Positions 39,518 through 63,504 of a DNA stretch of 64,000 nucleotides are shown one piece after another. Numbering within the stretch: the first letter of the stretch is position 1; every line of letters begins with the position of its first letter. A model generated the notes under the pieces. It saw only the letters and a program-made list of their open reading frames with translations. It was not told the origin of the DNA and searched no databases. The DNA lies in NCBI RefSeq assembly GCF_030252425.1, contig NZ_CP126994.1:248001-312000 (forward strand). The letters run 5' to 3'. The position numbers and the translations under genes were made by a program. The stretch is from Acidisoma sp. PAMC 29798 (lineage in GTDB: Bacteria; Pseudomonadota; Alphaproteobacteria; Acetobacterales; Acetobacteraceae).

Positions 39518-39527
39518 ATGTATACAA
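39518..39527. promoter_or_regulatory. Predicted GntR operator A1
   Basis: ATGTATACAA with palindromic core TGTATACA. It fits the TNGT-N2-ACNA half-site rule of FCD-type GntR regulators. Centre is 84 bp upstream of operator A2. Confidence 0.6.
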
Positions 39528-39601
39528 AATATCGCCGCGATACCCGGAGCTCTCCGATTCCTAGGATGGCATGAACTATGCATCGGAAGCATTCAGGAAT
39601 T

Positions 39602-39611
39602 TTGTATGCAT
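39602..39611. promoter_or_regulatory. Predicted GntR operator A2
   Basis: TTGTATGCAT with core TGTATGCA, one base from the perfect palindrome. It lies about 75 bp before the first gene of operon A. Confidence 0.5.
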
Positions 39612-39685
39612 GGCGGCAGCGGTGCATCGGTGTAGTGGATGGAGGATTGCCTTTTTGATGCGGACATCGGCCCGAGACCCGCGGC

Positions 39686-40477
39686 GTGGATAGTGTCATC
39701 CAGCCGATCAGCAAGAAGACGGGCGCGTTCTCGGATGCGCCGCCGCTCGTCTGCCCGGGCATCATTATCGAGAATTTGACGCTGCGCTTCGGCACGCGGC
39801 CGATCTTCGAGAACCTTTCCCTCGAAATCATCGGCGGCCAGTTTGTTGCCCTGCTCGGCACCAGTGGCGTCGGGAAAAGCAGCCTGCTGAAGATTCTCGC
39901 AGGGCTGTCCAAACCCAGCGCCGGCACCGTGCGCGCCAGCGATGGCGGGCCGATCAAGGGCCGCATCGCCTATATGGGCCAGCAAGACCTGCTCTATCCC
40001 TGGCTGCGCGTGATCGAAAACGTCATGCTCGGCAGCCGGCTGCGCGGCGAGAAACCGGACCGTGACCGGGCGATGCATATCCTGGAGCGTGTCGGCCTCG
40101 CCGACCGCGCCCTTGCCTTGCCGATGGAGCTGTCGGGCGGCATGCGCCAACGCAGCGCCCTCGCCCGTACCCTCTATGAGGACCGGCCGATCGTGCTCAT
40201 GGACGAGCCGTTTTCGGCGCTCGACACCTTCACCCGCGCCAAGGTTCAGGACCTCGCCGCCGAGATGCTGCAGGGCCGCACGGCGCTGCTCATCACCCAT
40301 GACCCGCTGGAAGCCTGCCGCCTCGGCCATCACCTTGTGGTCCTGTCCGGCCATCCGGCGACGCTCGGGCCGCCGATCTTCGTGCCCGGCACGATTCCGC
40401 GTGCCCCCGATGACCCCGATTTGCTGACCACCCAGGGCCATTTGATGCGCGTGTTGACGGAGCTCGAAACCGAATGA
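39686..40477 (+). CDS. thiZ: ABC transporter ATP-binding protein, ThiZ/SsuB-like
   Basis: 263 residues from a GTG. Walker A LLGTSGVGKSSLLK (about 57-67), signature ELSGGMRQRSALARTL, Walker B IVLMDEPFSALD, H-loop THDPLEA. This class powers uptake of nitrate, sulfonates, taurine or thiamine-pyrimidine precursors. The last fits best because a ThiY-like receptor and TenA are encoded in the same predicted regulon 10 kb away; the substrate remains inferred. First gene of an eight-gene operon. Ribosome-binding site not obvious; translation may be coupled to the short leader frame ending at 39693. Confidence 0.85.
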   Translation: MDSVIQPISKKTGAFSDAPPLVCPGIIIENLTLRFGTRPIFENLSLEIIGGQFVALLGTSGVGKSSLLKILAGLSKPSAGTVRASDGGPIKGRIAYMGQQDLLYPWLRVIENVMLGSRLRGEKPDRDRAMHILERVGLADRALALPMELSGGMRQRSALARTLYEDRPIVLMDEPFSALDTFTRAKVQDLAAEMLQGRTALLITHDPLEACRLGHHLVVLSGHPATLGPPIFVPGTIPRAPDDPDLLTTQGHLMRVLTELETE

Positions 40478-41238
40478 CCCACTTCAGGACTCTCTCCCGC
40501 CCCATCGTGACGCTGGTCGGCCTGATCGTGGTCTGGTGGTGCATCACGCGCTTCACCGGCATTCCGTCCTTCATGCTGCCTGACCCCAGCGCCGTCGCGA
40601 AGGCTCTTGTCTCGCAATGGCAGTTGCTGTTTTGGAGCACGCTGACGACCCTGCTGGAGATCATGCTCGGCCTCGTCATTGGCACCGTCCTGGGCGCGGG
40701 CCTCGCCTTGGTCATGGTGTTCTCGCCGTTGTTGCAGCGTTGGCTTATGCCGCTGCTGCTGCTCAGCCAGGCGATCCCGGTCTTCGCCCTGGCGCCGTTG
40801 CTGGTGCTTTGGTTCGGCTTCGGCATCAGCTCCAAGGTGGTGATGGCCGTGCTGGTGATCTTCTTCCCGATAACCGCCTCCTTCTTCGATGGGCTGCGCC
40901 GCACCGATATCGGCTGGCTCGACCTGTCGCGGACCATGGGGGCGTCGCCCTGGGCGATGTTGCGCCATGTCCGGTTGATGGCGGCGCTGCCCTCCTTCGG
41001 GGCGGGCCTGCGCGTCGCCGCCGCCATCGCGCCGATCGGCGCCATCCTCGGCGAATGGGTCGGGTCCTCAGCGGGCCTCGGCTACGTCATGATGAACTCC
41101 AACGCGCGTATTCAGACGGATGTCATGTTCGCAGCGCTGTTCGTGCTGTCGGTAGTCGCGATCCTGCTGTGGGTGATCGTCGACCGCGTGCTCAAGCGGC
41201 TGCTCTACTGGGCGCCCGATACGATGACGACGCACTGA
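40474..41238 (+). CDS. thiX: ABC transporter permease, ThiX/SsuC-like
   Basis: 254 residues with six hydrophobic segments. The BPD_transp_1 EAA-like loop reads DGLRRTDIGWLDLSRTMGAS (about 145-164), and an upstream segment LSQAIPVFALAPLLVLWFGFG is typical of this family. Its ATG overlaps the ATPase stop by four bases, and its stop overlaps the next gene. The binding protein is not adjacent; the ThiY-like gene at 50086 is the likely partner. Confidence 0.88.
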   Translation: MTHFRTLSRPIVTLVGLIVVWWCITRFTGIPSFMLPDPSAVAKALVSQWQLLFWSTLTTLLEIMLGLVIGTVLGAGLALVMVFSPLLQRWLMPLLLLSQAIPVFALAPLLVLWFGFGISSKVVMAVLVIFFPITASFFDGLRRTDIGWLDLSRTMGASPWAMLRHVRLMAALPSFGAGLRVAAAIAPIGAILGEWVGSSAGLGYVMMNSNARIQTDVMFAALFVLSVVAILLWVIVDRVLKRLLYWAPDTMTTH

Positions 41239-42053
41239 TGACCTGGAACCAGCATCCTGCGGAGATCGACGGCATTTCCTTCGCCCACAAGACGCAGGGG
41301 GAGGGGCCACCGCTGCTCCTCATCCACGGTGTCGGGCCGGGCACCATGGGCCTCGCGAATTTCGGCCCGATCGTGGATAGGCTCGCGGCGCATTTCACCC
41401 TGCATATGATCGACCTGATCGGTTTCGGCGCCTCCGGCCGCAAGCCGGTGGGGCCCTATTTCGACGTGGCCCTCTGGCTGCGGCAGATCGGCGTCGTGCT
41501 GAACGCCATCGGCCAACCTGCCTTCGTGCTCGGCAATTCCATCGGCGCCGCACTGGCGTTGAAGGCGGCATCCGGCAACCCGCGCGTGCGCGCCGTGGTC
41601 GCGGTCGGCGGCCCGATCGCGCCGTTTGAGATGCCGGCGGCACTGCGCGCCTTCTGGTCCGTACCGCAGGACGAGGCGGGCCTGGCCGCCGCCATGCGAC
41701 CGATGACCGCGGCGCAGAAGGAGCCTGACCCGGCGCTGGTCGCGCAGCGCTTCGCTTTGTTCGCCGATGCGGCCTTCAGCGCGCATTTCGGGGCCTTGGT
41801 GGCGGAGGGCCGCGCCGGCCTCGGTCACGCGGTGCTGACAGAGGCCGAGGCTGCGGCCATCATCTGCCCTGTTACCCTGGTCTATGGGCGTGACGATCGT
41901 GCCTGCCCGCCCGACCTCATCCTGCCGCAGGTGACACCGCTGCTGCCGGGCGCGGATGCCGTGCTGCTGGGCAGTTGCGGCCACAACGTCGCCTTCGAGC
42001 GTGGGGACGCGCTCATTACCCTTGTGAACCTCCGATTTGGAGCGAAGCCATGA
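41238..42053 (+). CDS. Alpha/beta hydrolase (MhpC-like)
   Basis: 271 residues. Oxyanion HGVGPGTMG near residue 31, nucleophile elbow VLGNSIGAALAL with Ser about 96, acid Asp in YGRDDRACPP and His in SCGHNVAFE. Enzymes of this group hydrolyse C-C bonds after ring cleavage, carbamates or esters. The start shares one base with the permease stop and the end overlaps the amidohydrolase, so it is an integral operon member. Probable role: hydrolysis of a ring-opened or acylated intermediate. Confidence 0.85.
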   Translation: MTWNQHPAEIDGISFAHKTQGEGPPLLLIHGVGPGTMGLANFGPIVDRLAAHFTLHMIDLIGFGASGRKPVGPYFDVALWLRQIGVVLNAIGQPAFVLGNSIGAALALKAASGNPRVRAVVAVGGPIAPFEMPAALRAFWSVPQDEAGLAAAMRPMTAAQKEPDPALVAQRFALFADAAFSAHFGALVAEGRAGLGHAVLTEAEAAAIICPVTLVYGRDDRACPPDLILPQVTPLLPGADAVLLGSCGHNVAFERGDALITLVNLRFGAKP

Positions 42054-43450
42054 AAACCATCATCCGTTGCGGGAAACTCTTTACGGGCCTCGCGGATACG
42101 GCCGAGGCCGACCAGGCCCTGGTCATTGAAGGCGGTCGGATCGTGTGGACCGGCGCTTATGCCGCCGCGCCCAATCCCGAAGCGGGCGATCGCTTCGTCG
42201 ATCATGCGGCGCGCTTCGTGATGCCCGGCCTCAGCGATTTGCACACGCATCTGAGTTACGGCAATGCGCGGTCGGAGGAGGAGGTTGATCTCTATGCCAG
42301 CCTCGAATACCGCGCCATCCGCTCGCTTGCTGCCGCCCAGCGCATGCTCAAAGCCGGCTATACCGCCATTCTTGACCCGGCAACCGCCGGCCATGTGACG
42401 CCGGCGCTGCGTGATGCCCTGTTCACCGGCATGTTCGCCGGTCCTCGTATCACTGCCGCCGGACAATCCCTGACCTCGCGCCAGGGGCTTTACGATTACT
42501 ACCCGAGTTGGATCGGCTGCCCCTCGGTCTCCACCGGCGCGCTGGTGCGGTCACCCACTGAAGCCATCGAGGAAATTCGCCGCCAGACGAAAGAGGGCGT
42601 GGACGTCATCAAACTTGCGATGGATGGCATTCAGGGCGACCGCAAAAGCGGTCTCTATGCCGGCTTCACGCAAGAGGAAACCACGGCCATGGTGCGGGAG
42701 GCGAAGCGCCTCGGCCGCAAGGTGGTCGTGCATGTGCGCGGGCGCGAGGGTGCCATGTATGCCGCCCGCGCCGGCGTGGACATTCTGTATCATGCGTCGC
42801 GGATCGATAATGAAGGCATTCGCGCCGCCAAGGATATGGGCGTGTCGATCTGCCCCTCGCTATTGCTGCTCGTCAACAATATCGAATACGCGCAGCCGGA
42901 CGATCCGTCATATGACTGGTGGCCGGGCATCAACCGCCGCGAATTGGCGGACGCCAAGATCAATCTGCGGAAGGCCTATGACGCCGGAATTCCTTTCCTC
43001 ACTGGCTCCGAGACCGGTTTCGGCATCACACCTTACGGCGAGTGGTCGGCCAAGGAGTTCGAGATCATGGTCAATCATCTCGGCATGTCCACCGCAGAGG
43101 TGTTGCGCATGGCGACCCATGGTAACCGCGCCATGCTGCGTGATGGCGATGAGCATGATTCGTTGGTGGCCGGTAAACGTGCCGATTTCATCGTCGTGGA
43201 TGGCGATCCGCTCGCAGATATCACAGTCTTGCAGGAACGCAGCCAAATCACCGATGTCTGGATGGATGGCGCGCGTATCGACCTGCCGGAGACGCCGGTT
43301 GAAATCCCGCGCCATCAGCGCGAGGCGAGCCAGGGCTTCTGGAACCGCACCTATACGCGTGAGGTCGCGCGTGGATATACGCCGAATCCACTCGGCATGG
43401 ACGGCATGAGCAAAGTCGAAAGCACCATCATTTCGGAGGCCGCAGAATGA
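42050..43450 (+). CDS. Metal-dependent amidohydrolase (imidazolonepropionase/prolidase-like)
   Basis: 466 residues. Urease-superfamily features: MPGLSDLHTHLSYG with the HxH metal pair (about 64-66), a likely carboxylated Lys in GVDVIKLAMDG, VVVHVRG, ILYHASRI, and a final acidic position in LTGSETGFG where Glu replaces the more usual Asp. The C-terminal beta-sandwich ends KRADFIVVDGDPLADI. Such enzymes hydrolyse cyclic amides, guanidines or dipeptides. In this operon a deaminase or ring hydrolase acting on a nitrogen heterocycle is plausible. Overlaps the Rieske gene by four bases. Confidence 0.87.
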   Translation: MKTIIRCGKLFTGLADTAEADQALVIEGGRIVWTGAYAAAPNPEAGDRFVDHAARFVMPGLSDLHTHLSYGNARSEEEVDLYASLEYRAIRSLAAAQRMLKAGYTAILDPATAGHVTPALRDALFTGMFAGPRITAAGQSLTSRQGLYDYYPSWIGCPSVSTGALVRSPTEAIEEIRRQTKEGVDVIKLAMDGIQGDRKSGLYAGFTQEETTAMVREAKRLGRKVVVHVRGREGAMYAARAGVDILYHASRIDNEGIRAAKDMGVSICPSLLLLVNNIEYAQPDDPSYDWWPGINRRELADAKINLRKAYDAGIPFLTGSETGFGITPYGEWSAKEFEIMVNHLGMSTAEVLRMATHGNRAMLRDGDEHDSLVAGKRADFIVVDGDPLADITVLQERSQITDVWMDGARIDLPETPVEIPRHQREASQGFWNRTYTREVARGYTPNPLGMDGMSKVESTIISEAAE

Positions 43451-44745
43451 GCGCCCTGGTCACGCAAGAACCCGCGGCGGATCTGCTCCATCGCTATAGT
43501 TTTCCGCAAAGCGATTGCAGCCAGATCCCCTATGGCATGTATCGCGATCCCGACATCTACGCTCTGGAGCAGGAGAAGATTTTTCGCGGGCCAGTTTGGA
43601 ACTACCTCGCTCTGGAATGCGAAGTGCCCAAGCCGGGTGATTTTCGGGTCATCGCCGTGGGGGACACGCCGGTCATCGTCAATCGCGCGAAAGACGGGTC
43701 GATCCATGCTGTGGTCAATCGCTGCGCCCATCGCGGTGCGACGGTGCAGCGGCAGTTGCACGGCAATACCAAGGTCCATACCTGCTGTTATCATCAATGG
43801 TCCTTCGATCTGACCGGAAAGCTGGTCGGCATTCCCTTTCAGCGCGGCGTCAATGGCATCGGCGGCCTGCCCGCCGATTTCGACAAATCCTGTCACTCGC
43901 TGCAGCGTCTGCGGATCGAGACGCTCAATGGCGTCATCTTCGGCACCTTCTCCGATGAGACCGCGCCTTTAGTCGAATTTCTCGATGTGCCCTTCGTCAC
44001 TCAGTTGAAGCGCTTGTTCCATAAGCCGGTGCGCGTGCTCGGCTATCAGCGCCAGCGCATCTTCGGCAATTGGAAGCTCTATTCTGAAAATCTGCGCGAC
44101 CCTAATCACGGCGGATTGCTGCATATGTTCCAGATCACCTTCGGTATCGCGCGGCTCAATGGCAAAGGCGGTGCGACTTTGGACAGTGAAGGCAAGCACA
44201 ATATGTCCTGGGCGGCGCAGGGTGGCCGCAAGGACGGCGAGCCCGAACCCGCCAAGGATGCGGGCTATGGCGATACTGGGCGCGGCGACATGAACATCAA
44301 GCTGCGCGACCCGTCCCTCCTCACCTATCGGCATGAATATCCCGATGATCTGACACTGACCATCGCCTCCATCTTTCCCAATTGCTGCTTTCAGCAGATC
44401 GGCAATACCCTGGCTATCCGCCAGTTCCGCACGACATCGGCCGATGAATGCGAAGTGGTGTCGACCTTCTATGGCTATGAGGATGATGACGAGGGCATGG
44501 CGCGGCACCGGTTGCGCATGGCGAATCTCGCCGGTCCCGCCGGCCTCGTCTCCATGGAAGACGGTGAGGCGGTGGAACTCGTTCACCGTGCCATCGTGCG
44601 TGACACGGACAAGCATTCCGTCGTGGCCTTCGGCGGCGTGGGTGCGGTGAAGGATCAGGAAAACCTGGTGACAGACGTGCCGATGCGCGGGTTCTGGATT
44701 CATTACTGCAAGCTCATGGGCATCGAAACGGGAGCATCCGCATGA
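43447..44745 (+). CDS. Rieske non-haem iron oxygenase, alpha subunit
   Basis: 432 residues. Rieske [2Fe-2S] ligands are NRCAHRG (C93, H95) and CCYHQW (C113, H116). The catalytic iron site matches E-N-x2-D-x2-H-x4-H exactly as ENLRDPNHGGLLH (E214, D218, H221, H226). This is a ring-hydroxylating dioxygenase of the alpha/beta type, with its beta subunit encoded next (4-base overlap). No ferredoxin or reductase is encoded in the window. In this context the substrate is likely a nitrogen heterocycle; hydroxylation or N-dealkylation are both possible. Confidence 0.93.
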   Translation: MSALVTQEPAADLLHRYSFPQSDCSQIPYGMYRDPDIYALEQEKIFRGPVWNYLALECEVPKPGDFRVIAVGDTPVIVNRAKDGSIHAVVNRCAHRGATVQRQLHGNTKVHTCCYHQWSFDLTGKLVGIPFQRGVNGIGGLPADFDKSCHSLQRLRIETLNGVIFGTFSDETAPLVEFLDVPFVTQLKRLFHKPVRVLGYQRQRIFGNWKLYSENLRDPNHGGLLHMFQITFGIARLNGKGGATLDSEGKHNMSWAAQGGRKDGEPEPAKDAGYGDTGRGDMNIKLRDPSLLTYRHEYPDDLTLTIASIFPNCCFQQIGNTLAIRQFRTTSADECEVVSTFYGYEDDDEGMARHRLRMANLAGPAGLVSMEDGEAVELVHRAIVRDTDKHSVVAFGGVGAVKDQENLVTDVPMRGFWIHYCKLMGIETGASA

Positions 44746-45242
44746 TGGATGTAACCGCCGCACCCCGCACATTGTCCCTCGAACGCTATTATGACGTCGT
44801 CATGCTGCTCGAATCCTATGGCCGGCTCTTGGACGAAGACAGGCTCGAAGACTGGATCGAGCTTTTTGACACTCAGGCCCATTACGAAATCCTCAGTCGC
44901 GAGAATGTGGAGCAGGGTCTGCTGCTGGCCCTGATGCTGTGCGACAACAAGGATATGATCTACGATCGTATCTTCTCGCTCCGCGAAGCGAATATCTACA
45001 ATCTTCATTACGATTGCCACATTCTCGGCCTGCCGCGCGCCGCACCTTTGGAGACTGGCGAGATTCAGGTGAGCTGCGCCTATTCGCTGTATCAGAGCAC
45101 GCCTGAGGGCGTGTCCCGCCTGTTCAGCGTCGGCCGCTACAGCATGCTGCTCGTCGAGAGCGACGGGCGGCTAAAGATTCGCAAGCAGGTTGTGACCGTC
45201 GATACCAGCGCCATTCTGACACTGTTGGCGACGCCTATATGA
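44742..45242 (+). CDS. Ring-hydroxylating dioxygenase, beta subunit (NTF2-like)
   Basis: 166 residues with the SnoaL/NTF2-like fold of small dioxygenase subunits: YYDVVMLLESYGRLLDEDRL, EDWIELF, LCDNKDMIYDRIFSLREANI and RKQVVTVDTSAIL. The ATG at 44742 overlaps the alpha-subunit stop; its own stop overlaps the RidA-like gene. It should assemble as alpha3beta3 with the preceding product and is structural. Confidence 0.9.
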   Translation: MMDVTAAPRTLSLERYYDVVMLLESYGRLLDEDRLEDWIELFDTQAHYEILSRENVEQGLLLALMLCDNKDMIYDRIFSLREANIYNLHYDCHILGLPRAAPLETGEIQVSCAYSLYQSTPEGVSRLFSVGRYSMLLVESDGRLKIRKQVVTVDTSAILTLLATPI

Positions 45243-45637
45243 ACACGGTCACGCCGCTGCTGGTGCCGGGATTGCCGCCGCCGGTCAGCCATTATGCCGA
45301 TGCCACCATCGCCAACGGCTTTCTGTTCGTGTCCGGCATGATCGCGGCCGATGCGAAGGGTGAGTTGGTCGGCGCGGGTGATGCCGGCGCGCAAGCTGCC
45401 TTCATCTTCGACCTCATCGCCAAGGCCTTGGCGGCAGTCGGCGCCAGTTTCGTCGATGTCGCGAAGGTGACGGTGTTCTTGACCGATATCGAGGATCGTC
45501 GTGCGGTCAACGAAATCCGCAAAGCGGTCTTCGGCGCGCATAAGCCGGCGAGCAGCCTGGTCGAGATCAGCCGCCTGGTGATCCCCGGCGCCCTCGTCGA
45601 GGTCGAAGCCATCGCCGTCATTCCTTCCGCCTCATAA
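45239..45637 (+). CDS. RidA/YjgF-family protein, catalytic Arg replaced
   Basis: 132 residues, trimer-forming RidA fold. ANGFLFVSGMIAADAKGELV and VAKVTVFLTDIEDRRAVNEI are typical. At the position where imine/enamine deaminase RidA has the essential Arg (PARSxVEV) this protein reads KPASSLVEISRL, so the classical 2-aminoacrylate deaminase activity is not expected. It resembles other Rid subfamilies found in catabolic operons, such as RutC in uracil breakdown. ATGA-coupled to the oxygenase genes. Confidence 0.86.
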   Translation: MNTVTPLLVPGLPPPVSHYADATIANGFLFVSGMIAADAKGELVGAGDAGAQAAFIFDLIAKALAAVGASFVDVAKVTVFLTDIEDRRAVNEIRKAVFGAHKPASSLVEISRLVIPGALVEVEAIAVIPSAS

Positions 45638-45650
45638 AGACGAGACTGTC

Positions 45651-46469
45651 ATGCAAGTCATAACCTATCCGCTCGCCGTTGCCGGGCAGATCACACGCGT
45701 CATCGAAGCGGGCGATGGGCCGGCGATCCTGTTTCTGCACGGCCTCGGCGCGCGCGCCGACCGTTGGCACGGAACGGTCGCGCGCTTTGCGGCTCTCGGC
45801 TATCGCGCCGTGGCTTTCGATCTTCCCGGTCATGGTCTTGCGACAAAGGGCGCCGGTGTTCCCAACACCGTGCCGAAGATCGCCGATTTCGTGCTGGCGG
45901 TCTTAAGTGAACTTGGCATCGAGACGGTCGTGCTTGTCGGCACATCACTCGGTGCGCATATCGTCGCAACCGTCGCTTGCAAAAAACCCGCGATGGTGCC
46001 GGGCCTCGTGCTCGTCGGCGCCCTCGGCATCGCGCCTCTGGCGCAGGAGGTTGCCGAGTCGATCCGCATCAATGTGAAGGCGCAGGACAAGGTGCGTATT
46101 CGCGCCAAACTGTCTTTCGTCATTGCCGATCCCGCGCTCATCACGCCTGCTTTGGTTGAGGAAGAGTGGCGCATGAACGGATCGCCGGGCGCATTGGAGA
46201 GTTTCACCGTCATCGGCGATTATCTCGCCGACGGCATCGCGAATGACTATGTCGCGGAGCAGCTTTCGGCGCTGTATCCGCCCGAGAAACTGCTGCTGGT
46301 CTGGGGTAGTGAGGACAAGGCGGTGCCTGTGAGCGTTGGGCACGCCTGTCAGCAGGCGCTGGGCGGCCCGGATCTGGTGTTGATCGATGGCGCCGCCCAC
46401 GCGCCCTATTTCGAACAGCCGGCGGCTTTCGACGCGCCGGTCGTGGCCTTCATCGCCTCTCTCCTTTAG
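45651..46469 (+). CDS. Alpha/beta hydrolase
   Basis: 272 residues. HGLGARADRW (oxyanion region, about 30-39), nucleophile LVGTSLGAHIV with Ser about 99, acid Asp in WGSEDKAVPV, His in DGAAHAPYFEQP. Eighth and last gene of operon A, 13 bases after the RidA-like gene. By position it could hydrolyse an amide or carbamate released by ring opening, by analogy with RutD after RutA/RutC; this is inference. Its stop overlaps the convergent alcohol dehydrogenase gene by four bases. Confidence 0.85.
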   Translation: MQVITYPLAVAGQITRVIEAGDGPAILFLHGLGARADRWHGTVARFAALGYRAVAFDLPGHGLATKGAGVPNTVPKIADFVLAVLSELGIETVVLVGTSLGAHIVATVACKKPAMVPGLVLVGALGIAPLAQEVAESIRINVKAQDKVRIRAKLSFVIADPALITPALVEEEWRMNGSPGALESFTVIGDYLADGIANDYVAEQLSALYPPEKLLLVWGSEDKAVPVSVGHACQQALGGPDLVLIDGAAHAPYFEQPAAFDAPVVAFIASLL

Positions 46470-49979: not shown

Positions 49980-50031
49980 AAGTCTCGCTAAACGCGACCG
50001 AACCAGTATGGCATGCTTCCTGCATCGTTCT

Positions 50032-50041: not shown

Positions 50042-50085
50042 CATTGTGGTGTTGTGGCGATCAACTCAAACCTAAGGATGGTTCC

Positions 50086-55639: not shown

Positions 55640-55649
55640 AAGCGCAGGC

Positions 55650-57047
55650 TCATAGCGACACGATCGGATAGGCGATGTCGAAACCGCGCGCTGCTTCAAG
55701 CAACCGCATCACCTGCAGCACGCCGGCATCGTCGAAGCGCTGACCGGCGATTTGCACGCTGACCGGGCAGCCACCGTGGCGAGCGGCGAGAACAGGCACG
55801 GTGCCCGCGGGCCAGCCAAGCTGATTGAACCAGCAGGCGAAACCCATATGCCCCATTGGGCCCCCCGCCTTCGACGGGCGGATATCGGTGGCGGCGAAGG
55901 CGCGCATCGGAAGCGCGGGCGACAGGATGTAATCGAAGGGAGCGAGTTGCTGGCGGACAGCCTCCGTGCCGAGGGCCAGCCTCTTGCCTACCTGTGCTGC
56001 GAAAAGCGCCGATTGCTGAAGCGTTTGATCCATCATGGCGCCGATCTCAGGCAGAATGCGTTCCCTGGCGGCGCTATCGGCGGCATAGAAATCGGCTATG
56101 CCCTTATAGACCATGAACCAGTAGATCGCGTCATAGTCTGCAGTTTTAGCTGCGAGATCGTCGATGTCCGTGATCGCGGCCCCTAAATCCGCGAGGCGAC
56201 TCGCTTGCAGATCCACGGCCGCAGCTGTGTCGTCATCGACAGTGTCGCCAAAACTGAGTGCCCGGAGGACGCCGACCGTCTTGCCTGAAAGAGACGTAAA
56301 GTGAGCACCCGGCATGTAGCGACCGTCCAGCGCGACGTGATCGGCGGCGTCCGTCTGGCCGAGGACGCGCAAAGCCTGCTCGACATCATCGACACTTTTG
56401 GCCATCGGACCGGCGCTACGATAATTGCCCGCAGGGTCATAGGCGATCCGCCCTTGCGTCGGTTTGATCGAGGCAAGACCGCTCAACGCGGCCGGCAGGC
56501 GCACGGATCCAACCATATCGGTGCCGACGGCGATGGGGGCGACGCCCGCCGTGACAGACGGTCCGGCCCCTGCGCTTGATCCACCCGGATTCGTGTCCAG
56601 GTCCCAGGCGTTGCGAATAATGCCGTGTTGCGAACTGACGCCCGACATGATCAGCGCATAATCCGGCATCGTCGTTTTCGCGATAACGATCATGCCCTCG
56701 TCCCGTGCGCGCCGCACCGGCGCCGCGTCAATTGTAGAGACCACGCCGGCATTCACGGCGGTGCCGAGCCAACGCGGCAGACCTATAACGTGAAAACTGT
56801 CCTTGAAGGTGATCGGCACGCCGTCGAGCGGCCCGAGCGGCGCGTGGGCGCGCCAGCGCGCCGCACTCAAGGCCGCATCGGCCCGGGCACGGTCGGCATC
56901 CAGACTCGCGATCGCATTCAGCCGCTCGCTGACCCAAGCCGCCGCCGCCAAGGATGCATCGACAACCTCCACGGGGCTGATATCCCCGTGCGCGAAGCCA
57001 GCACTCATCTCTGTTGCGGTCATCGCGAGCATGTCGCGCTTGGTCAT
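55650..57047 (-). CDS. Amidase (amidase-signature family)
   Basis: 465 residues from the ATG at 57047. Ser-cisSer-Lys triad: Lys in VPITFKDSFHV (about 80), cis-Ser in NPGGSSAGAG (about 157) and nucleophile Ser in GTDMVGSVRLPA (about 181). The family hydrolyses amides, carbamates and ureides. Third gene of operon C, 13 bp after the rhodanese gene. The target is unknown; an amide released after ring opening is a reasonable guess. Confidence 0.9.
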   Translation of the reverse strand: MTKRDMLAMTATEMSAGFAHGDISPVEVVDASLAAAAWVSERLNAIASLDADRARADAALSAARWRAHAPLGPLDGVPITFKDSFHVIGLPRWLGTAVNAGVVSTIDAAPVRRARDEGMIVIAKTTMPDYALIMSGVSSQHGIIRNAWDLDTNPGGSSAGAGPSVTAGVAPIAVGTDMVGSVRLPAALSGLASIKPTQGRIAYDPAGNYRSAGPMAKSVDDVEQALRVLGQTDAADHVALDGRYMPGAHFTSLSGKTVGVLRALSFGDTVDDDTAAAVDLQASRLADLGAAITDIDDLAAKTADYDAIYWFMVYKGIADFYAADSAARERILPEIGAMMDQTLQQSALFAAQVGKRLALGTEAVRQQLAPFDYILSPALPMRAFAATDIRPSKAGGPMGHMGFACWFNQLGWPAGTVPVLAARHGGCPVSVQIAGQRFDDAGVLQVMRLLEAARGFDIAYPIVSL

Positions 57048-57060
57048 GATGGTGTCATTC

Positions 57061-57930
57061 CTACTCGCCCGTCGCCATCGGCAAGGTTGCGTCGGCACGC
57101 CACTCATTGAGTGACCCGTCAAAGATCGTCATGCCCTCAAAGCCTGCGGCCGTGAGAACCAGGGCGAGGCCCGCCGCATTGATGCCGCCGCCGCAATAGA
57201 GGATCGGCCGGGATTTGTCCGCGCAACCGAGTGCGCGCCAGGCGTCGCGGCCCTTGGCCGCGTCCACGCAGCCCTCCGCGTCTAGCAGATCCGAATAGGG
57301 CAGATTGACGCTGCCCGGAATATGCCCGGCGCGCGTACCGTCACTTGCCTGGCCCAGGAACTCAACCCGGCGCGTCGCACAAACCAGCGGGTCGCCGCTG
57401 GCCTGCGATGCCAAGGCAATCCCGCGAACTTCGGACAGATCGACGAAGAATCCGTCTTGAGTATCCGCCACGAAATCCCCTTCCAGCCAGGACATTGTGG
57501 CGCCGCCCGTCTCCAGCGGTCGGCCGCTGCGTGTCCAGGCGTTCAGGCCACCATCCAGCACATAGACCGATTGGCACCCGAAAGACCGGAGCACCCACCA
57601 GACGCGGGCGGCCCAAGCACCGCTCAACCCATCATAAACGACGACGATCGTGTCACGGTGTATGCCCAGGCTGCGCGCCGCCGCCTGCAATTGGCCGGGT
57701 GAGGGACGGGTAAACAGGAACGGTGCGTCAGGGTCTGAGAAGCCGTCGAACAGATCGGCGAATCGCGCACCGGGAATATGGCCGGCCTCATAAAGGCTTT
57801 GCCCTTTCTGAAATGTCGTCTTGCCGATGGCATCGATACCGCGGTCGATCGTGGCATCCAGCACCACGATCCCCCCGGTTTGCGCGGCCAGCCAATCGGC
57901 GGTGACGAGCGGTGATCGCACAACTCTCAT
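57061..57930 (-). CDS. Two-domain sulfurtransferase (rhodanese, SseA-like)
   Basis: 289 residues from the ATG at 57930. Inactive N-terminal rhodanese domain (YEAGHIPGARF, VVVYDGLSGAWAARVWW), C-terminal catalytic domain with AGHIPGSVNLP and active-site Cys in ILYCGGGINAAGLAL (about 241). The loop CGGGIN differs from the CGSGVTA of 3-mercaptopyruvate sulfurtransferases, so the donor is uncertain. Its start overlaps the stop of a DszA-like monooxygenase gene by four bases, suggesting handling of sulfur freed from a substrate. Confidence 0.88.
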   Translation of the reverse strand: MRVVRSPLVTADWLAAQTGGIVVLDATIDRGIDAIGKTTFQKGQSLYEAGHIPGARFADLFDGFSDPDAPFLFTRPSPGQLQAAARSLGIHRDTIVVVYDGLSGAWAARVWWVLRSFGCQSVYVLDGGLNAWTRSGRPLETGGATMSWLEGDFVADTQDGFFVDLSEVRGIALASQASGDPLVCATRRVEFLGQASDGTRAGHIPGSVNLPYSDLLDAEGCVDAAKGRDAWRALGCADKSRPILYCGGGINAAGLALVLTAAGFEGMTIFDGSLNEWRADATLPMATGE

Positions 57931-59285
57931 GATCCCACCGCCATCTTGCGCACGCGGTGGCGCCACTCACCGCGCTCAGGACGTTTGATGCCGAGATTTT
58001 CGCGCGTCGTGCGACCCTCATACGACGTACGGAACAGCCCGCGCCGCTGCAATTCCGGCACCACCTCGCGGGCAAAATCCTCGAAGGCGGCGGGCACATG
58101 CGTCGCCTGAATCATGAAACCATCGGCGGCGCCCTGGTCCATCCAACGCTCCATATTGTCAGCGATGTCGCGCGCCGAGCCGATCATGCTGCCTTCCGTG
58201 CGTGCGCCATACCATTTGCCGATGTCGCGAATGCTGAGCTTTTCGCGTTCGGCAAATTCGACGACTTCGCGGTAGTGGCCTTCGACGCCGACGACGTCCA
58301 AGGGCGGCAGCGGTCCATCAAGGTCGTATTGCGTCAGATCGACGTTGACGTGATAGGCGAGACGCGAAAGCCCGGCTTCGTAATCCACGAGATCGGCGAA
58401 GGCCTCATGCTTGGCCATGGCATCGCGGTAATCGCGCCCGACGACGGTCGTGGCGGCGGGCAGGATCTTTACCTGATCTGGGTCGCGGCCGTGCGCGGCC
58501 ACCCGTGTCTTCATATCGGCGTAGAAATCGATCGCGGAGGCGAGCGATTCATGGCTGCAGAAGATGAGATCGGCCCAGCGCGCCGCAAAATCCCGCCCTG
58601 TGGGTGAAGCACCGGCCTGGATGATCAGCGGATAGCCTTGCGGCGAGCGCGGCACACTGAGCGGCCCCTGCACGCTAAGATACTGGCCTTTGAAATCGAC
58701 CGCCTCCACGTCTTCGGGGCGGCCGAAGATGCCGCTCTCCTTATCGGCGATGATCGCGTCGTCGGACCAGCTATCCCAAAGCCGTGTCGTGGCCTCCAGA
58801 AACTCTTCCGCGCGGGCGTAGCGCGTGGTTCGATCGGGCAGCTTTTCCTGGCCGAAATTCTGCGCCTCCGCATCCTGGAAGCTGGTCACGACGTTCCATC
58901 CCGCCCGGCCGCCGGTTAGATGATCGAGCGTCGCGAAAGCGCGTGCGAGATGATACGGCTCCTGATAGCCCGTGGAGATGGTCGCGGCCACGCCCAAATG
59001 CGTCGTCGCCTCCGCCATCAGCGAAAGCACCGGCATCGGGTCGAGACGCGGCGTGCCCGAGCCGAATTTCACCGCGGGTGCAAAGGAGCCGCCGAGGCTG
59101 CGCGGAACGGAGAGCGCATCCGGGATGAAGGCGAGTTCGAAGCAGGCGGCTTCCAGAACGCGCGCGATATGTTTGTAATGCGCCGCCGTCAGCATCCCGG
59201 GACTCGCATCCGCGTGGCGCCAGCCGACCGCGCCCTGCGGGCCCGCATTCATGAAGGCCGCAAGGCGCATCATCTTCTTTGCCAT
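57927..59285 (-). CDS. LLM-class flavin-dependent monooxygenase (NtaA/SnaA/DszA type), second copy
   Basis: 452 residues from the ATG at 59285; upstream in-frame codons to 59396 are not convincing. Shares with the first copy the blocks LDHLTGGRAGWNVVTSF, LWDSWSDDAII, VPRSPQGYPLIIQAGAS and PELQRRGLFRTSY, so the two are paralogues. Closer by eye to DszA/SnaA-type enzymes, which act on sulfur heterocycles among other substrates. Head of operon C with rhodanese and amidase. Flavin reductase absent here. Confidence 0.9.
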   Translation of the reverse strand: MAKKMMRLAAFMNAGPQGAVGWRHADASPGMLTAAHYKHIARVLEAACFELAFIPDALSVPRSLGGSFAPAVKFGSGTPRLDPMPVLSLMAEATTHLGVAATISTGYQEPYHLARAFATLDHLTGGRAGWNVVTSFQDAEAQNFGQEKLPDRTTRYARAEEFLEATTRLWDSWSDDAIIADKESGIFGRPEDVEAVDFKGQYLSVQGPLSVPRSPQGYPLIIQAGASPTGRDFAARWADLIFCSHESLASAIDFYADMKTRVAAHGRDPDQVKILPAATTVVGRDYRDAMAKHEAFADLVDYEAGLSRLAYHVNVDLTQYDLDGPLPPLDVVGVEGHYREVVEFAEREKLSIRDIGKWYGARTEGSMIGSARDIADNMERWMDQGAADGFMIQATHVPAAFEDFAREVVPELQRRGLFRTSYEGRTTRENLGIKRPERGEWRHRVRKMAVGS

Positions 59286-59415
59286 ATAACTCTTTCCGTC
59301 AATCGTCGGTCCTGACGCCTGGTGCCGGCCCGCCTCGGGTTGAACAGGCAAAGTCGCGCCGCTGCGGACAGGACATCGTCCCGCCCGCGCAAGCATCGTC
59401 GCCGTAAACGGCTAG

Positions 59416-60210
59416 TTATTCGGCAGGATCGAGAAGCGAGAGTTCATCGACCAGAGCCGCACCGAAAGACGCTGTGCCCTTCGTCATGGCACCGGCCCGT
59501 TCGGCGGCCACTGCGTAGATGGCATGGGCCGCGCATGTCGCCGCCAGAGGTGACGACCCCGCCGCCAGCATCGCGGCGATCAGCGCGCCGAGGCTGCAAC
59601 CCGCGCCCGTGACCTTCGTCAGCCGGACATCGCCGCCCGGAACGGAAAAGACCTCGACGCCATCGGTGATATAGTCAATTGGGCCACTCACCGCGACAAT
59701 GGACTTGGTGGTCGTCGCCAGCGACTTGATGAAGTCGATGGCCTCGGCCGCATTGGCCGTTGTCTCGACGCCTTTGCCGCCGGCGCCGCCGCCTGAAAGG
59801 GCGATCAGCTCACTGGCATTGCCGCGAATGACCGTTGGGTGGAAGGCGAGCAACGCGTGGACGACATCGTCATAGGCAGTCGCCCCGGCCCCCACGGCCA
59901 CGGGATCGAGCACCCAGGGCGTTCCGGCCGCATTGGCGGATCGCGCGGCCTCAAGCAAGGTTTCGGGGCTGCTGCTCATCAGGGCGGCGGTGTTGATCCA
60001 CATCGCCCCAGCGCCAGCGGCAAAGGCTGTCGGCCAACCGGGTGCGGCGCCGATGGCAGGTCCGGCGCCGACGGCGAGCAGGACATTCGCACTCAGATTA
60101 GCCGCGACATAATTCGTCAGGCCGTAGACGAAGGGCCCCGCTTTCTTCAGTGCCGCCAGTTCTTGCCGAACACTCTGATCCGCCCAGGTTACGTCACGCA
60201 CCCACATCAT
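59416..60210 (-). CDS. thiM: Hydroxyethylthiazole kinase
   Basis: 264 residues; phosphorylates 4-methyl-5-(2-hydroxyethyl)thiazole for thiamine salvage. ThiM motifs: VYGLTNYVAANLSANVLLAV near residue 29, VLDPVAVGAG (about 100), GNASELIAL (about 130) and KVTGAGCSLGALIAA with the conserved Cys (about 206). Start: GGAG directly abuts the ATGATG at 60210, which leaves too little space; a GTG four codons in (60201) has nine bases and may be the true start. No TPP riboswitch is visible upstream. Solitary gene, not next to thiD/thiE. Confidence 0.92.
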   Translation of the reverse strand: MMWVRDVTWADQSVRQELAALKKAGPFVYGLTNYVAANLSANVLLAVGAGPAIGAAPGWPTAFAAGAGAMWINTAALMSSSPETLLEAARSANAAGTPWVLDPVAVGAGATAYDDVVHALLAFHPTVIRGNASELIALSGGGAGGKGVETTANAAEAIDFIKSLATTTKSIVAVSGPIDYITDGVEVFSVPGGDVRLTKVTGAGCSLGALIAAMLAAGSSPLAATCAAHAIYAVAAERAGAMTKGTASFGAALVDELSLLDPAE

Positions 60211-60435: not shown

Positions 60436-60861
60436 ATGGTGGACGACACGAGTATTCGGGCGGGTCAATGCCATTGCGGTGCGGTGCATTTGGAGGTGAC
60501 GCTCAGCGACGGCTTCAATACGATCCGCCGCTGCACCTGCTCGTACTGCTGCATGCGCGGTGCCGTCGTTGTCATGGCGGAAATGGGTGCGGTCAGGATC
60601 GTGCAGGGCGAGGATGCGTTGACAAGCTACCGCTTCCATACCGGATCGGCGCTGCATTTCTTCTGTTCTCACTGCGGCATATACACGCACCATCAACGAC
60701 GCTCTGACCAGAGTCTCTATGCCGTCAACGTAGCCTGCCTGGACGGGGTAAGCCCATTCGACTTTCCAGAAGTGCCTGTCATGGACGGGGTCAATCATAC
60801 GAATGATACCGGCAGGCCAACGCGCCGCGCAGGTACCCTTCGCTTCATCCCAGCTGATTAA
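60436..60861 (+). CDS. GFA-domain zinc protein (Gfa/CENP-V family)
   Basis: 141 residues. Zinc cysteines in GQCHCGAVHLEV (about 12-15), RRCTCSYCCMRG (about 33-39) and FFCSHCGIYTHH (about 77-80), the layout of the glutathione-dependent formaldehyde-activating fold. The family is heterogeneous and many members have no known activity; formaldehyde handling cannot be claimed from the sequence. Divergent from thiM (225-bp gap) and convergent with the NCS1 permease. Confidence 0.88.
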   Translation: MVDDTSIRAGQCHCGAVHLEVTLSDGFNTIRRCTCSYCCMRGAVVVMAEMGAVRIVQGEDALTSYRFHTGSALHFFCSHCGIYTHHQRRSDQSLYAVNVACLDGVSPFDFPEVPVMDGVNHTNDTGRPTRRAGTLRFIPAD

Positions 60862-60901: not shown

Positions 60902-60933
60902 GACGAGACAATGCCTGCAGGCATTGTCTCGTC
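60902..60933. repeat. Perfect 32-bp palindrome between convergent genes
   Basis: 16-base arms with no spacer, centred on CTGCAG between 60917 and 60918. It lies 40 bp after the GFA-gene stop and 28 bp before the NCS1 stop. As RNA it folds into a hairpin in either direction, so a bidirectional terminator is the simplest reading; a dimeric protein site is the alternative. Confidence 0.7.
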
Positions 60934-60961
60934 TCGACAGCAGTGGGCTGATCTTCCGACT

Positions 60962-62440
60962 TTAGTCGCCGGCGTGCAAGGCGGCCGGTGACCTTTGGCT
61001 CGACGACAATGCAACATAGACGAGAGCGCCGGCGGTGGCGCCGATCAGCCAACCCCAGTCACCCACATTGAAGATGACCTTGTAGGCACCAAGCAGCGCC
61101 AAGCCGATCGAAAGCGCGCCAGCCAGGGCCAGTGAGAGGACCGCGCGCAGGTTCCAGCCGCCGTCGTAGTGGAAGTCGCCATTCTCCGACATCGTGTAGA
61201 GATCCGCCACCTTAATGTTTTGGCGCTTCACGAGATAGTAGTCCGCCACGATGATGCCGAACATGGGCCCGAGGACAGCGCCGAAGATGCTGACGAACAG
61301 GGTGATGGCCGATGGGCTCGCAACAAAGAGCCAAGGGCAAACCAAGACGGATAGAATGGAGGTGATCAACCCGCCACGGCGGAAGTCGATCTTTTCCGGA
61401 TAGAGGTTGGCGATGTCATAGGCAGGCGACACGAAATTGGCGACGATGTTGATGCCCATCGTGGCGACGATGAAGGTGATGGAGCCGACGATGACGATGA
61501 TGGGATTGCCGATCTTCTGCACGATCAGGACAGGGTCCATAATCGCCGCTCCAAAAACCTTGAGCGTCCCGGCCGTCACGATGACGGTAATGATCGAGAA
61601 AACAAGGAAGTTGACCGGCAGGCCAAGAAAGTTCCCCTTCTTCATGGTCGCCTCGTCCTTGCCGAAGCGGGCAAAATCGCCAAAGTTCAAAAGCAAGGCG
61701 GCGAAATACGCGACGATGAGCATCGCGGCGTTCGCCATGACACCGATGGTGGCACCGGTCGAGGCGGCTGGCGGGCTGAGTTGCAGAGCCAGGCTCGAGA
61801 ATCCGGTTTTCGATAGCATCCAGATCGCCAGTGCGAACATGACGACGTAAACGACGGGGCCACAAAAATCGATGAATTTGCGAATCCGCTCCATGCCGCT
61901 CAGGAAGATGAGAAGTTGGAAGATCCACATGAAGAGGAAGCTGAACCAGCCGAGGGTCGACAAGCCGAGGACATTATTATGCGTCAACCCGACCGAGGAG
62001 GGCAGCAGGGTAATGACGAGAACCTCCACCGCCTTCGATGCGAAGTAGGTCTGAACACCATACCAGACGATGCCGACGATCCCGCGGACGACGGCCGCGA
62101 GATTTGCGCCCATCACTCCGAAGGAAATACGGGCGACGACGGGATAGGGGATGCCATATTTCAAGGATGGCCGGCCTATCAGGTTCATCAGGAAGTAAAC
62201 GGCCAGGATGCCGACGAGCATGGAGATAAGAACCTGCCACCCCGTCAGGCCGAGAAAGAACAGGCTCGCCGCGAAGGTATATCCGCCGACGGAATGCACG
62301 TCCGACATCCACATGGCGAAGAGACTGAACACACCCCACGTCCGCCCCTCCGGCGCGGTGGGAGACAGATCGTGATTGTAGAGCTGGGGATGAGCCCCGG
62401 TTATAACGAGCGTCGTGACGTGGTCGCTATTGGATGACAT
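60962..62440 (-). CDS. NCS1-family nucleobase/allantoin/thiamine-type permease
   Basis: 492 residues, about twelve membrane segments. The N-terminus LYNHDLSPTAPEGRTWGVFS and MWMSDVHSVGGYTFAASLF are characteristic of the nucleobase:cation symporter-1 family (uracil, cytosine, allantoin, hydantoin, pyridoxine or thiamine). GANLAAVVRGIVGIVWYGVQ is also typical. Specificity cannot be read from sequence. A palindrome overlapping its promoter and a RutR-like regulator gene upstream suggest regulated uptake of a pyrimidine-like compound. Confidence 0.92.
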   Translation of the reverse strand: MSSNSDHVTTLVITGAHPQLYNHDLSPTAPEGRTWGVFSLFAMWMSDVHSVGGYTFAASLFFLGLTGWQVLISMLVGILAVYFLMNLIGRPSLKYGIPYPVVARISFGVMGANLAAVVRGIVGIVWYGVQTYFASKAVEVLVITLLPSSVGLTHNNVLGLSTLGWFSFLFMWIFQLLIFLSGMERIRKFIDFCGPVVYVVMFALAIWMLSKTGFSSLALQLSPPAASTGATIGVMANAAMLIVAYFAALLLNFGDFARFGKDEATMKKGNFLGLPVNFLVFSIITVIVTAGTLKVFGAAIMDPVLIVQKIGNPIIVIVGSITFIVATMGINIVANFVSPAYDIANLYPEKIDFRRGGLITSILSVLVCPWLFVASPSAITLFVSIFGAVLGPMFGIIVADYYLVKRQNIKVADLYTMSENGDFHYDGGWNLRAVLSLALAGALSIGLALLGAYKVIFNVGDWGWLIGATAGALVYVALSSSQRSPAALHAGD

Positions 62441-62757
62441 GTCTATCCCGTCTCAAATGTCACTGGTCGCCGCGCCGCGACAGCCTGTTGAGGGCAAATT
62501 CGGCCGGGCGTTGCCAGACAGCGTGCCCGGCTGCTGGTGCCGCGCACCATGCGAGGCGATCGTTACTGAGCAAGTGGCGTGCCAATTTATAACGATCGGT
62601 AAAACTATTTTACAGATCGGCGTTGGCGACTGCGGCAAACTCCCATCGCGCCATTCACCCCGTCGCAATGCCAAATAAAGAGGCATTCTCAGTCTAGAAA
62701 CAGGTCGGTGGTCAAAAATAGGGCATTGTATTAAGCGTGTTGTGCTTCAGCACTCTT
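62441..62757. other. 317-bp region between regulator and permease genes
   Basis: No gene supported. It holds the permease promoter and a 27-bp palindrome (62593-62619). The rest shows no recognisable element. No thiamine-pyrophosphate riboswitch consensus is present on the minus strand. Confidence 0.5.
62586..62619 (-). promoter_or_regulatory. NCS1 permease promoter with palindromic operator
   Basis: Arms CGATCGGTAAAA (62593-62604) and TTTTACAGATCG (62608-62619) are inverted with one mismatch around CTA. On the minus strand a TATAAA -10 (62586-62591) lies 17 bp from a weak TGTAAA -35 inside the palindrome. A dimeric TetR-type repressor, most simply the adjacent one, could bind here. It does not match the E. 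coli RutR box. Confidence 0.55.
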
Positions 62758-63504
62758 CTACCGACTGCTAGTCGGCGGCCGCCTTCCCGCTGGTTTCGAT
62801 GCGCCGCGGGACTGGGCCGCCGTGACGGAGTGTTCCTTACCGTTGAGGCCGAGCCCGCCAAGGACCAGCTGGACAATCGTCGCTTTGGCCGAGTCGTAAT
62901 CCGCTTCCTCCAAGACCCTTTTCTTCTTCATAATGGTCATCTGGCTGGAAAAATCGGCATAGGCCTGGGTCATGGCCCAAATACAGAAGAATAGATCCGG
63001 GGCGCTGATCGGCCTGACCATGCCTTGGGCAGCCCATTCATCAACAAGTCTCATCTTATTAAGCAGCAGGGGCGTCGAGACCTTCTCAATGAAGGTTCCA
63101 ATGTATTGCGCGCCGCTGATGATCTCATTTGCGTATATCCGGGACAAATCCGGATGATCTCTTGAGAAATCGACCTTCCTATGGATGTAATTCGTGAGAA
63201 TTTCCACAATATTGGTCGTAAGATCGAGATTTTCGATATCTCTTGCCCACATGTTCATGGCTCGCTCCAAGATGGCGCGATACAAATCTTCCTTGTCCTC
63301 GAAGTAATAATAGATGTGGGGTTTTGCGATAGACGCCTTTTTGGCGATCAGCGCCGTCGTCGCGCCCCGGAAGCCGAAATGCCCAAAGACAAATTCTGCC
63401 GCATCAAGAATTTTACCTTCGATATCTGGTCCAGGTGCCGCCTTTCGGCCGCCGCTCGAGGGCCGGCGGATGCGAAATAGCTTCAGCAGATCATCGTCTG
63501 ACAT
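62758..63504 (-). CDS. TetR-family regulator, RutR-like
   Basis: 248 residues from the ATG at 63504; an in-frame ATG at 63639 would add a poorly conserved leader. DNA-binding domain: ILDAAEFVFGHFGFRGATTA, IAKKASIAKPHIYYYFEDKE (about 45-82). The ligand domain resembles RutR (YcdC-type C-terminus): DFSRDHPDLSRIYANEIISG and FFCIWAMTQAYADFSSQ. RutR binds uracil or thymine and controls pyrimidine breakdown. A basic, Pro/Ser-rich N- and C-terminal extension is present. Same strand and upstream of the NCS1 permease. Confidence 0.88.
   Translation of the reverse strand: MSDDDLLKLFRIRRPSSGGRKAAPGPDIEGKILDAAEFVFGHFGFRGATTALIAKKASIAKPHIYYYFEDKEDLYRAILERAMNMWARDIENLDLTTNIVEILTNYIHRKVDFSRDHPDLSRIYANEIISGAQYIGTFIEKVSTPLLLNKMRLVDEWAAQGMVRPISAPDLFFCIWAMTQAYADFSSQMTIMKKKRVLEEADYDSAKATIVQLVLGGLGLNGKEHSVTAAQSRGASKPAGRRPPTSSR

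Follow-up and report, generated by a model that had tools for sequence, protein, structure and literature searches.

Can a bacterium that takes up fragments of thiamine (vitamin B1) degrade their rings, or does it only recycle them? The question is raised by a gene island of Acidisoma sp. PAMC 29798, a member of the Acetobacteraceae, which lies in a 64,000-nucleotide stretch of a 4.99-Mb genome (genome G000; G000:C1:248001-312000, hereafter the window, in whose numbering positions are given). A sequence-only reading of this DNA had placed at 39518-63504 a candidate catabolic island for thiamine-derived pyrimidine and perhaps thiazole compounds. The gene set is there; its true limits are close to 39686 and 63639, and profile searches against Pfam and NCBIfam recovered every gene class then named as an open frame with Pfam support among its 23 proteins; a small gene at 51050-51361, a rhodanese gene and a GFA-family gene at 60436-60861 had gone unmentioned. 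In our view the island probably encodes a catabolic, and not a salvage-only, route for both halves of thiamine, its substrates and order of steps being predicted from what was computed, which comprises the gene families, the conservation of catalytic residues and of linkage, and the interchange with a Rut-like module. The earlier reading knew of no pathway with this set, and the open-licence full-text literature searched yielded no description of a gene cluster degrading the rings of thiamine; the subscription literature might hold one.

Gene order and conservation of the island

On the plus strand, the genes from 39686 to 46469 form a run in which neighbours overlap or are separated by at most 13 bases. 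It opens with a thiZ-like ABC ATPase (39686-40477; PF00005) and a thiX-like ABC permease (40474-41238; PF00528), which overlap by 4 bases, and continues with alpha/beta hydrolase 1 (41238-42053; PF00561), whose start codon overlaps the thiX stop, an amidohydrolase of the Xaa-Pro dipeptidase/ochratoxinase type (42050-43450; PF01979, with kin in the PDB), the AndAc-like alpha subunit (43447-44745; PF00355/PF00848) and AndAd-like beta subunit (44742-45242; PF00866) of a Rieske oxygenase, a RidA-family imine/enamine deaminase (45239-45637; PF01042) and alpha/beta hydrolase 2 (45651-46469; PF00561). To the right lie a zinc alcohol dehydrogenase on the opposite strand (46466-47491; PF08240/PF00107) and, again on the plus strand, an aldehyde dehydrogenase (47725-49224; PF00171) and a GntR/FCD regulator (49279-49959; PF00392/PF07729). 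The thiY-like substrate-binding protein of the NMT1/THI5 type (50008-51042; PF09084) then heads a nearly abutting plus-strand block with the small gene, a dimethylformamidase-type (DMFase) large subunit (51365-53521; PF20254), a TenA-family aminopyrimidine aminohydrolase/thiaminase II (53522-54244; PF03070) and LLM1, a luciferase-like flavin monooxygenase (LLM) of the NtaA/DmoA family resembling YtnJ/MoxC (54247-55578; TIGR03860, with PDB kin). In this order, the genes for ring oxidation sit inside those of a single transporter, with its permease on one side and its receptor on the other. A minus-strand block follows, consisting of the hydroxyethylthiazole kinase gene thiM (59416-60210; PF02110, NF006830), a second, DszA-like monooxygenase, LLM2 (57927-59396; TIGR03860; true start probably ~110 bases further in), the rhodanese (57061-57966; PF00581) and an amidase (55650-57122; PF01425; true start probably further in).

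Two further genera of the family retain this combination. With recurrence defined as 40% identity or more across 60% or more of the query length, 17 of the 23 island proteins recur within 40 kb in genome G204 (contig C101) and 13 of the 23 in genome G076 (contig C74), and 63 other loci of at least 19 kb share between none and four; these controls are not ideal, as they had been retrieved for other purposes (in many cases for their DMFase homologues, and many come from Pelagibacteraceae), span 19-25 kb against the 40 kb of G204 and G076, leave uncounted the DMFase large-subunit gene (dmfA) that is counted in G204, and include kin of the system (L104, which carries the type R module described below; L224, a TenA/ThiXYZ cluster; L144, which holds the window's own tetR). 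Among 299 genomes of the family, a match to the Rieske alpha subunit below 1e-200 occurs in three, namely G000 itself, G204 and G076, all of them among the five with an LLM2 match below 1e-200; the remaining two of those five carry type R. Conservation across G204 and G076 argues that the gene set is not a chance assembly, and gene order differs among the three islands, which would suggest a set that has been kept rather than one recent copy. The G204 island also holds a TonB-dependent receptor (L138 12166-14649), possibly an outer-membrane importer of the substrate, and both sister islands have two diverged thiY copies.

The right-hand end of the island is less certain. A GFA-family gene (60436-60861, plus strand; PF04828), an NCS1 permease akin to the hydantoin permease Mhp1 (60962-62440, minus; PF02133) and a RutR-like TetR regulator (62758-63639, minus; PF08362) were not found in the sister islands, so that their membership is uncertain; the permease might import thiamine or one of its fragments. 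On the left, the neighbour is an apparently ordinary CBM48/alpha-amylase-family protein (36695-38866). The G+C content is 0.617 in the island as against 0.654 in the first 39 kb of the window. No tRNA was found in the window, and neither a thiamine pyrophosphate (TPP) riboswitch nor any other Rfam family matched at gathering thresholds anywhere in it, on which ground a salvage operon under a TPP riboswitch was rejected.

Entry genes and the proposed pyrimidine module

Why should this transporter be tied to thiamine? Transporters that adjoin TenA in Rhizobium, Paracoccaceae and same-genus loci share 63-81% identity with ThiZ and ThiX: ThiZ reaches 71% on a Rhizobium plasmid and 81% in the same-genus genome G004, and ThiX 63-80%. 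The ThiY receptor is related to a formylaminopyrimidine-binding protein (3ix1, its top solved relative in the PDB, E 2.4e-31; THI5/THI13 come next), which points to a predicted ligand of that kind. TenA scores 142 bits with PF03070, above the cut-off, and is the sole PF03070 match in G000; the earlier statement that it has all active-site residues was judged by eye against residues usual for the family. The genome also encodes ThiC, and salvage is therefore probably not essential to it. In the Bacillus-type salvage of N-formyl-aminopyrimidine (FAMP) by ThiXYZ, YlmB and TenA (see also passages of PMC12815266 and PMC10470507), an ABC transporter with a relative of the FAMP-binding protein, a TenA-family protein and a hydrolase of formamide-cleaving type are likewise combined. 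The island differs from it in two respects: its putative deformylase is of the DMFase and not the M20 type, and ring-oxidising genes are nested among those of the transporter.

The enzyme first described as formamidase-like belongs specifically to the DMFase large-subunit family (PF20254, 315.6 bits), with N-acetyl-beta-phenylalanine acylase and DMFase as its PDB relatives. In an alignment read by eye, with its motifs located, it keeps the equivalents of Y399, Y440, H519, E521, N547 and E657 of the Paracoccus enzyme, catalytic residues given for the Fe(Tyr)2(Glu) site in the relevant passages of PMC7686228. The 103-residue product of the small gene just upstream (plus strand), which matches nothing in Pfam or NCBIfam, has homologues of 61% identity in Acidocella and 50% in G204, next to the large subunit in both, and homologues sharing the locus of a large subunit in many others; position and conservation make it a candidate DMFase-type small subunit. 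The closest named relative of the large subunit among the matches listed, at 60%, comes from an Acidocella metagenome-assembled genome (MAG) in which tenA, thiY, small subunit and large subunit are consecutive. The window, Acidocella and G204 enzymes form one clade (SH-aLRT 100) that leaves out a second G000 copy, in a tree built by a quick method after sequences under 600 residues, window-gene duplicates and a further 26 of the 100 rows that remained (loci above L072 except L079, L083, L096, L097 and L138, mostly Pelagibacteraceae) had been dropped. No M20-family (YlmB-type) deformylase occurs in the island; the one adjoining TenA/ThiXYZ in genomes G003 and G004 has a best match of just 34% in G000 (G004 query) and, at 1e-20, lacks a match in G204, in G076 and in Acidocella. 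From this we infer that the DMFase-type enzyme replaces YlmB as the predicted formylaminopyrimidine deformylase.

The DMFase family is wider than the proposed pathway. The second G000 large subunit (49% identity; L145 ~9208-11720, G000:C1:1347213-1349393) has its own small-subunit homologue, and many loci of Pelagibacteraceae and other marine bacteria (L072-L101) encode family members ~41-43% identical to that of the window. As a pathway marker, any DMFase homologue was rejected: in a search that kept 80 loci of 512 relatives, most loci of at least 19 kb share with the island only the small subunit or nothing (at least 40% identity). A TenA gene and a DMFase large-subunit gene lie back to back in another MAG, from a marine alphaproteobacterium (L069 8997-12250); this pair was rejected as a sister island on its hydantoinase B, aminotransferase and peptide-transporter neighbours and its separate place in the tree.

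In the route that we propose, ThiXYZ would import a thiamine-derived pyrimidine, such as FAMP or hydroxymethylpyrimidine (HMP), the two-subunit DMFase-type enzyme would remove the formyl group, and TenA would convert aminomethylpyrimidine into HMP; as a thiaminase II, TenA could also split thiamine itself into HMP and hydroxyethylthiazole. The alcohol and aldehyde dehydrogenases, as proposed HMP and HMP-aldehyde dehydrogenases, would oxidise the 5-hydroxymethyl group of HMP to give 4-amino-2-methylpyrimidine-5-carboxylate. Because its amino group is ortho to the carboxylate, this compound is an aza-analogue of anthranilate, and the AndAc-like Rieske oxygenase might dihydroxylate it, releasing CO2 and ammonia. 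Opening and hydrolysis of the pyrimidine ring may then fall to LLM1, RidA, the amidohydrolase and the alpha/beta hydrolases. That the Rieske enzyme would fit the HMP-derived carboxylate is argued by analogy, and the ring opening is more speculative still.

The analogy has several parts. AndAc and AndAd are the best family models for the two Rieske subunits, and passages of the terephthalate dioxygenase (TPADO) structure paper (PMC9060491) describe AndAc as acting on anthranilate, an ortho-amino aryl carboxylate, to give CO2, ammonia and catechol. In an alignment judged by eye against the TPADO residues in those passages, the alpha subunit conserves the iron ligands H210, H215 and D356 (2-His-1-Asp), R309, which binds the carboxylate, and I290, but not N224 or R390. 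From AndAc/AndAd the island is set apart by its proposed pyrimidine substrate, by scores under the equivalog cut-offs and by having no reductase or ferredoxin genes that we could see. A comparable logic is known for riboflavin catabolism (RcaE/Lum genes; passages of PMC12746152), in which a vitamin heterocycle is degraded with a flavin monooxygenase and a Rieske dioxygenase, among others, but the vitamin, the genes and the ring chemistry all differ; riboflavin lyase is a solved relative (PDB) of both LLM1 and LLM2. Among the module's proteins, the Rieske alpha subunit (75-77% identity), LLM1 (69-75%; TIGR03860, 532 bits against a cut-off of 279.7), the amidohydrolase (65-68%), the alcohol dehydrogenase (60-67%), hydrolase 2 (59-60%) and the GntR regulator (51%) are conserved in both sister islands, and G076 also has homologues of hydrolase 1 (43%), RidA (52%) and the aldehyde dehydrogenase (61%).

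AndAc-like Rieske genes are found at 20 further places in 10 genomes, at 46-59% identity; 8 of these were read in stretches reaching 20 kb at most, the others with ~1.5 kb per side. The 8 stretches examined had other contexts, and an AndAc-like Rieske gene as such was rejected as a pathway marker. In three loci from other alphaproteobacteria (L106, L175, L180), an AndAc-like Rieske gene occurs with RidA and ABC transporter genes and no TenA match in the stretch; these clusters perhaps serve the catabolism of other amino-aryl acids.

The proposed thiazole module and the Rut-like islands

For the other half of the vitamin the evidence is a small group of genes that recur together. ThiM scores 215 bits with NF006830 (cut-off 180) and 200.2 with TIGR00694, below its cut-off of 256.4; LLM2 scores 503.9 bits with TIGR03860 (cut-off 279.7), has DszA as its top PDB match and is 67-73% identical to homologues in four other genomes of the family; the rhodanese resembles 3-mercaptopyruvate sulfurtransferase (NF008557, 138.5 of 250 bits). 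The three occur together in six organisms beyond the window: G204, G076 (at the end of a separate contig), G003, G004, the Paracoccaceae strain La 6 (plasmid pLA6_001) and Pseudonocardia, again on a plasmid, whose source is recorded as Apterostigma dentigerum. On the Pseudonocardia and marine Paracoccaceae plasmids they form one run (L219 11257-14183 and L218 8995-14522, respectively). Judged from this linkage, ThiM, the DszA-like LLM and the rhodanese are a conserved module, which lends substance to the thiazole part of the sequence-only reading at the level of prediction. The amidase accompanies it at 56-59% identity in G204, G003, G004 and La 6; in Pseudonocardia the neighbours that are annotated do not include it, and the G076 contig ends before a judgement is possible. 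The G003, G004 and La 6 modules add a RidA gene and a HAD-type gene (by Pfam in G003 and G004, as a 65% homologue in La 6). A plasmid collection gave 594 records with an LLM2 match (E limit 1e-80), and only three of them, one from La 6 and two Pseudonocardia plasmids, lie above 60% identity; in all three thiM adjoins LLM2 or shares its gene run (for the second Pseudonocardia plasmid, from a listing). Among 385 genomes of the class, only the window's own has an LLM2 match at 1e-140.

In the order that we would predict, ThiM phosphorylates hydroxyethylthiazole, LLM2 may open the thiazole ring by oxidation at C-S, the rhodanese may accept the sulfur and the amidase may hydrolyse the remaining amide. 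DszA, the dibenzothiophene-desulfurisation monooxygenase that is the closest solved relative of LLM2, acts on a sulfur heterocycle with C-S cleavage; LLM2 differs in being grouped with ThiM and a sulfurtransferase, and thiazole would be its expected substrate. In Burkholderia, thiamine is likewise split to hydroxyethylthiazole with ThiM as the next step, but the account of thiaminase I and ThiM as a thiamine degradation pathway in the relevant passages of PMC4475313 (2015) stops at the phosphorylated thiazole, with no ring-opening genes.

The thiazole module leads to a second kind of island. In G004, a single order comprises RidA, a RutA-like LLM, a LysR regulator, a RutD-like hydrolase, thiY, tenA, thiZ, thiX, a TRZ/ATZ-type deaminase, an M20 deformylase, an ammonium-transporter-family gene, thiM, RidA, HAD, amidase, rhodanese and LLM2 (L206 and L201); in G003 the two halves lie on separate contigs (L216 for the type R half). 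Two Rhizobium plasmids (L103, L104) and La 6 plasmid pLA6_003 (L105) carry the half that we call type R, that is TenA/ThiXYZ, the TRZ/ATZ-type deaminase and the M20 deformylase with RutA-, RutD- and RidA-like proteins, as opposed to the Rieske- and DMFase-containing type O of the window; the RutA-like protein is 76-82% identical on these three plasmids. The ammonium-transporter-family gene that adjoins thiM in G004 (L201 3402-4775) and G003 (L200 3842-5215) would fit nitrogen release or capture. Type R is apparently a second route for the pyrimidine of thiamine, and no description of this pairing was found in the open-licence full-text literature searched. Each of the six alphaproteobacteria in which a thiazole module was found (the window, G204, G076, G003, G004 and La 6) also has type O or type R.

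The proposed wiring of salvage genes to ring-degrading genes thus recurs in two other genera and, in its type R variant, in G003, G004, two Rhizobium plasmids and a Paracoccaceae plasmid, and on this evidence the idea is supported, as a prediction. The analogy with the Rut uracil pathway survives in part. RidA, an alpha/beta hydrolase, LLM monooxygenases and a RutR-like regulator do lie together in the island, and relatives have a Rut-like version whose proteins (RutA- and RutD-like in G004, RutF-like in Rhizobium) all score under their cut-offs; the LLMs of the window, however, are of the NtaA/DmoA family, and its chemistry looks, from these families, more like anthranilate dioxygenation. A broader scheme, which we consider about as likely to be right as wrong, is one of modular vitamin B1 catabolism, with a shared TenA/ThiXYZ entry, interchangeable pyrimidine modules (type O with DMFase; type R, Rut-like, with deaminase and M20) and one thiazole module. 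Such a system would have spread across alphaproteobacterial orders and, in its thiazole part, have reached actinomycetes; the Rieske enzyme would catalyse the dioxygenation of an aza-anthranilate, removing both its amino group and its carboxylate.

Alternative readings and the fate of vitamin B1

A number of observations weigh against a catabolic route for thiamine. Several profile scores fall short: 435.6 bits for the Rieske alpha subunit with AndAc, its top NCBIfam model, and 130.2 for the beta subunit with AndAd (equivalog cut-offs 750 and 230), 114.9 for TenA with the thiaminase II model TIGR04306 (cut-off 130), 54.8 and 55.4 for the two LLMs with RutA (cut-off 498.3) and 136.6 for the TetR regulator with RutR (cut-off 368); identity with RutA or RutR was rejected on these scores. 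Ser243, called specific to TPADO in the passages cited, is also serine in the Rieske alpha subunit. Neither a ferredoxin or ferredoxin reductase for the Rieske enzyme nor a flavin reductase for the LLMs was recognised in the island, and electron-transfer partners were not seen among the examined proteins of the G204 and G076 stretches, part of whose open reading frames were scanned. The island is rare and patchy: its Rieske gene is missing at 1e-60 from four listed same-genus genomes, is present in one of three genomes of the G204 genus, and has a best match of 59% outside the window's genome among the 385 class genomes. The association of the Rieske and LLM2 genes (Fisher p 2.3e-6) ignores phylogeny as well as linkage in two of the three genomes. 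In G076 no DMFase was found in the fetched stretches and there is no TenA, the single PF03070 match being PqqC, so that ThiXYZ and the separate thiM cluster are what ties it to thiamine. (The PF03070 matches on G076 C93 and G204 C84 were rejected as extra TenA genes, both being PqqC.) In G204, ridA and hydrolase 1 are not recognisable and the aldehyde dehydrogenase match spans 110 residues only. Outside the sister islands, four other family genomes have LLM2 homologues of 48-50% with no thiM in the fetched stretches, and these were not taken as modules. A close LLM2 is missing from the Acidocella genome and from a Rhizobium daejeonense plasmid, where the best matches reach 39-40%. Pantoea and Cupriavidus plasmids carry the RutA-like enzyme of type R but no TenA, and there are TenA loci without catabolic genes.

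What else could the island be? It might be a salvage locus in which ThiXYZ, DMFase, TenA and ThiM recycle thiamine fragments and an aromatic-acid cluster has landed by chance. Three plasmid TenA loci without catabolic neighbours (two from Azospirillum, one from Pantoea with ThiXYZ) and the ordinary role of ThiM as a salvage kinase would suit this, as would the Acidocella MAG with tenA, thiY and DMFase but no oxygenase genes, though that contig ends ~180 bases past the DMFase gene. We nevertheless consider it unlikely: thiX and thiY flank the oxygenase genes, whose frames overlap or abut, two further genera retain the combination, same-genus, Rhizobium and Paracoccaceae loci have a different ring-opening set next to these entry genes, and ThiC is present.

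Relatives of ThiXYZ and TenA could instead have been recruited to another N-heteroaromatic or amino-aryl acid, be it anthranilate-like, a pyrimidine antimetabolite or a pesticide. The AndAc-like nature of the Rieske alpha subunit speaks for such a substrate, as do the Thioclava (L106) and G379 (L175) stretches, in which an AndAc-like Rieske gene, RidA and an ABC transporter occur without a TenA match, and the diverged thiY pairs of G204 and of the TenA-less G076; TenA, ThiM and ThiY jointly indicate thiamine, however, and a thiazole module would have no role in anthranilate breakdown, which leaves this explanation improbable as well. It seems very improbable that the island serves to detoxify analogues of thiamine (bacimethrin-type pyrimidines or oxidised thiamine, for example) rather than to feed the cell. 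Passages of PMC12345177 report that Microcystis releases such analogues, and the enzymes might accept such rings, but dedicated uptake and the ammonium-transporter-family gene of the G003 and G004 loci would suit nutrition better.

A catabolic route for both halves of thiamine is thus the reading we prefer. Thiamine oxidation by soil bacteria is known from older whole-cell work. According to passages of a 2025 paper (PMC12746152), only the catabolism of vitamin B6 (pyridoxal phosphate), NAD+ and riboflavin is well characterised, a paucity described as a significant gap, and parts of a 2023 study (PMC10470507) report that several marine bacteria and phytoplankton have no clear YlmB for the deformylation of FAMP. 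A DMFase-type deformylase would be a candidate for that missing step, and ThiM accompanied by a DszA-like LLM and a rhodanese offers markers for finding thiazole degraders. The island provides concrete genes and suggests a new class of substrate for AndAc-type Rieske oxygenases; a thiamine route, if true, would help to show the fate of vitamin B1 in the environment.

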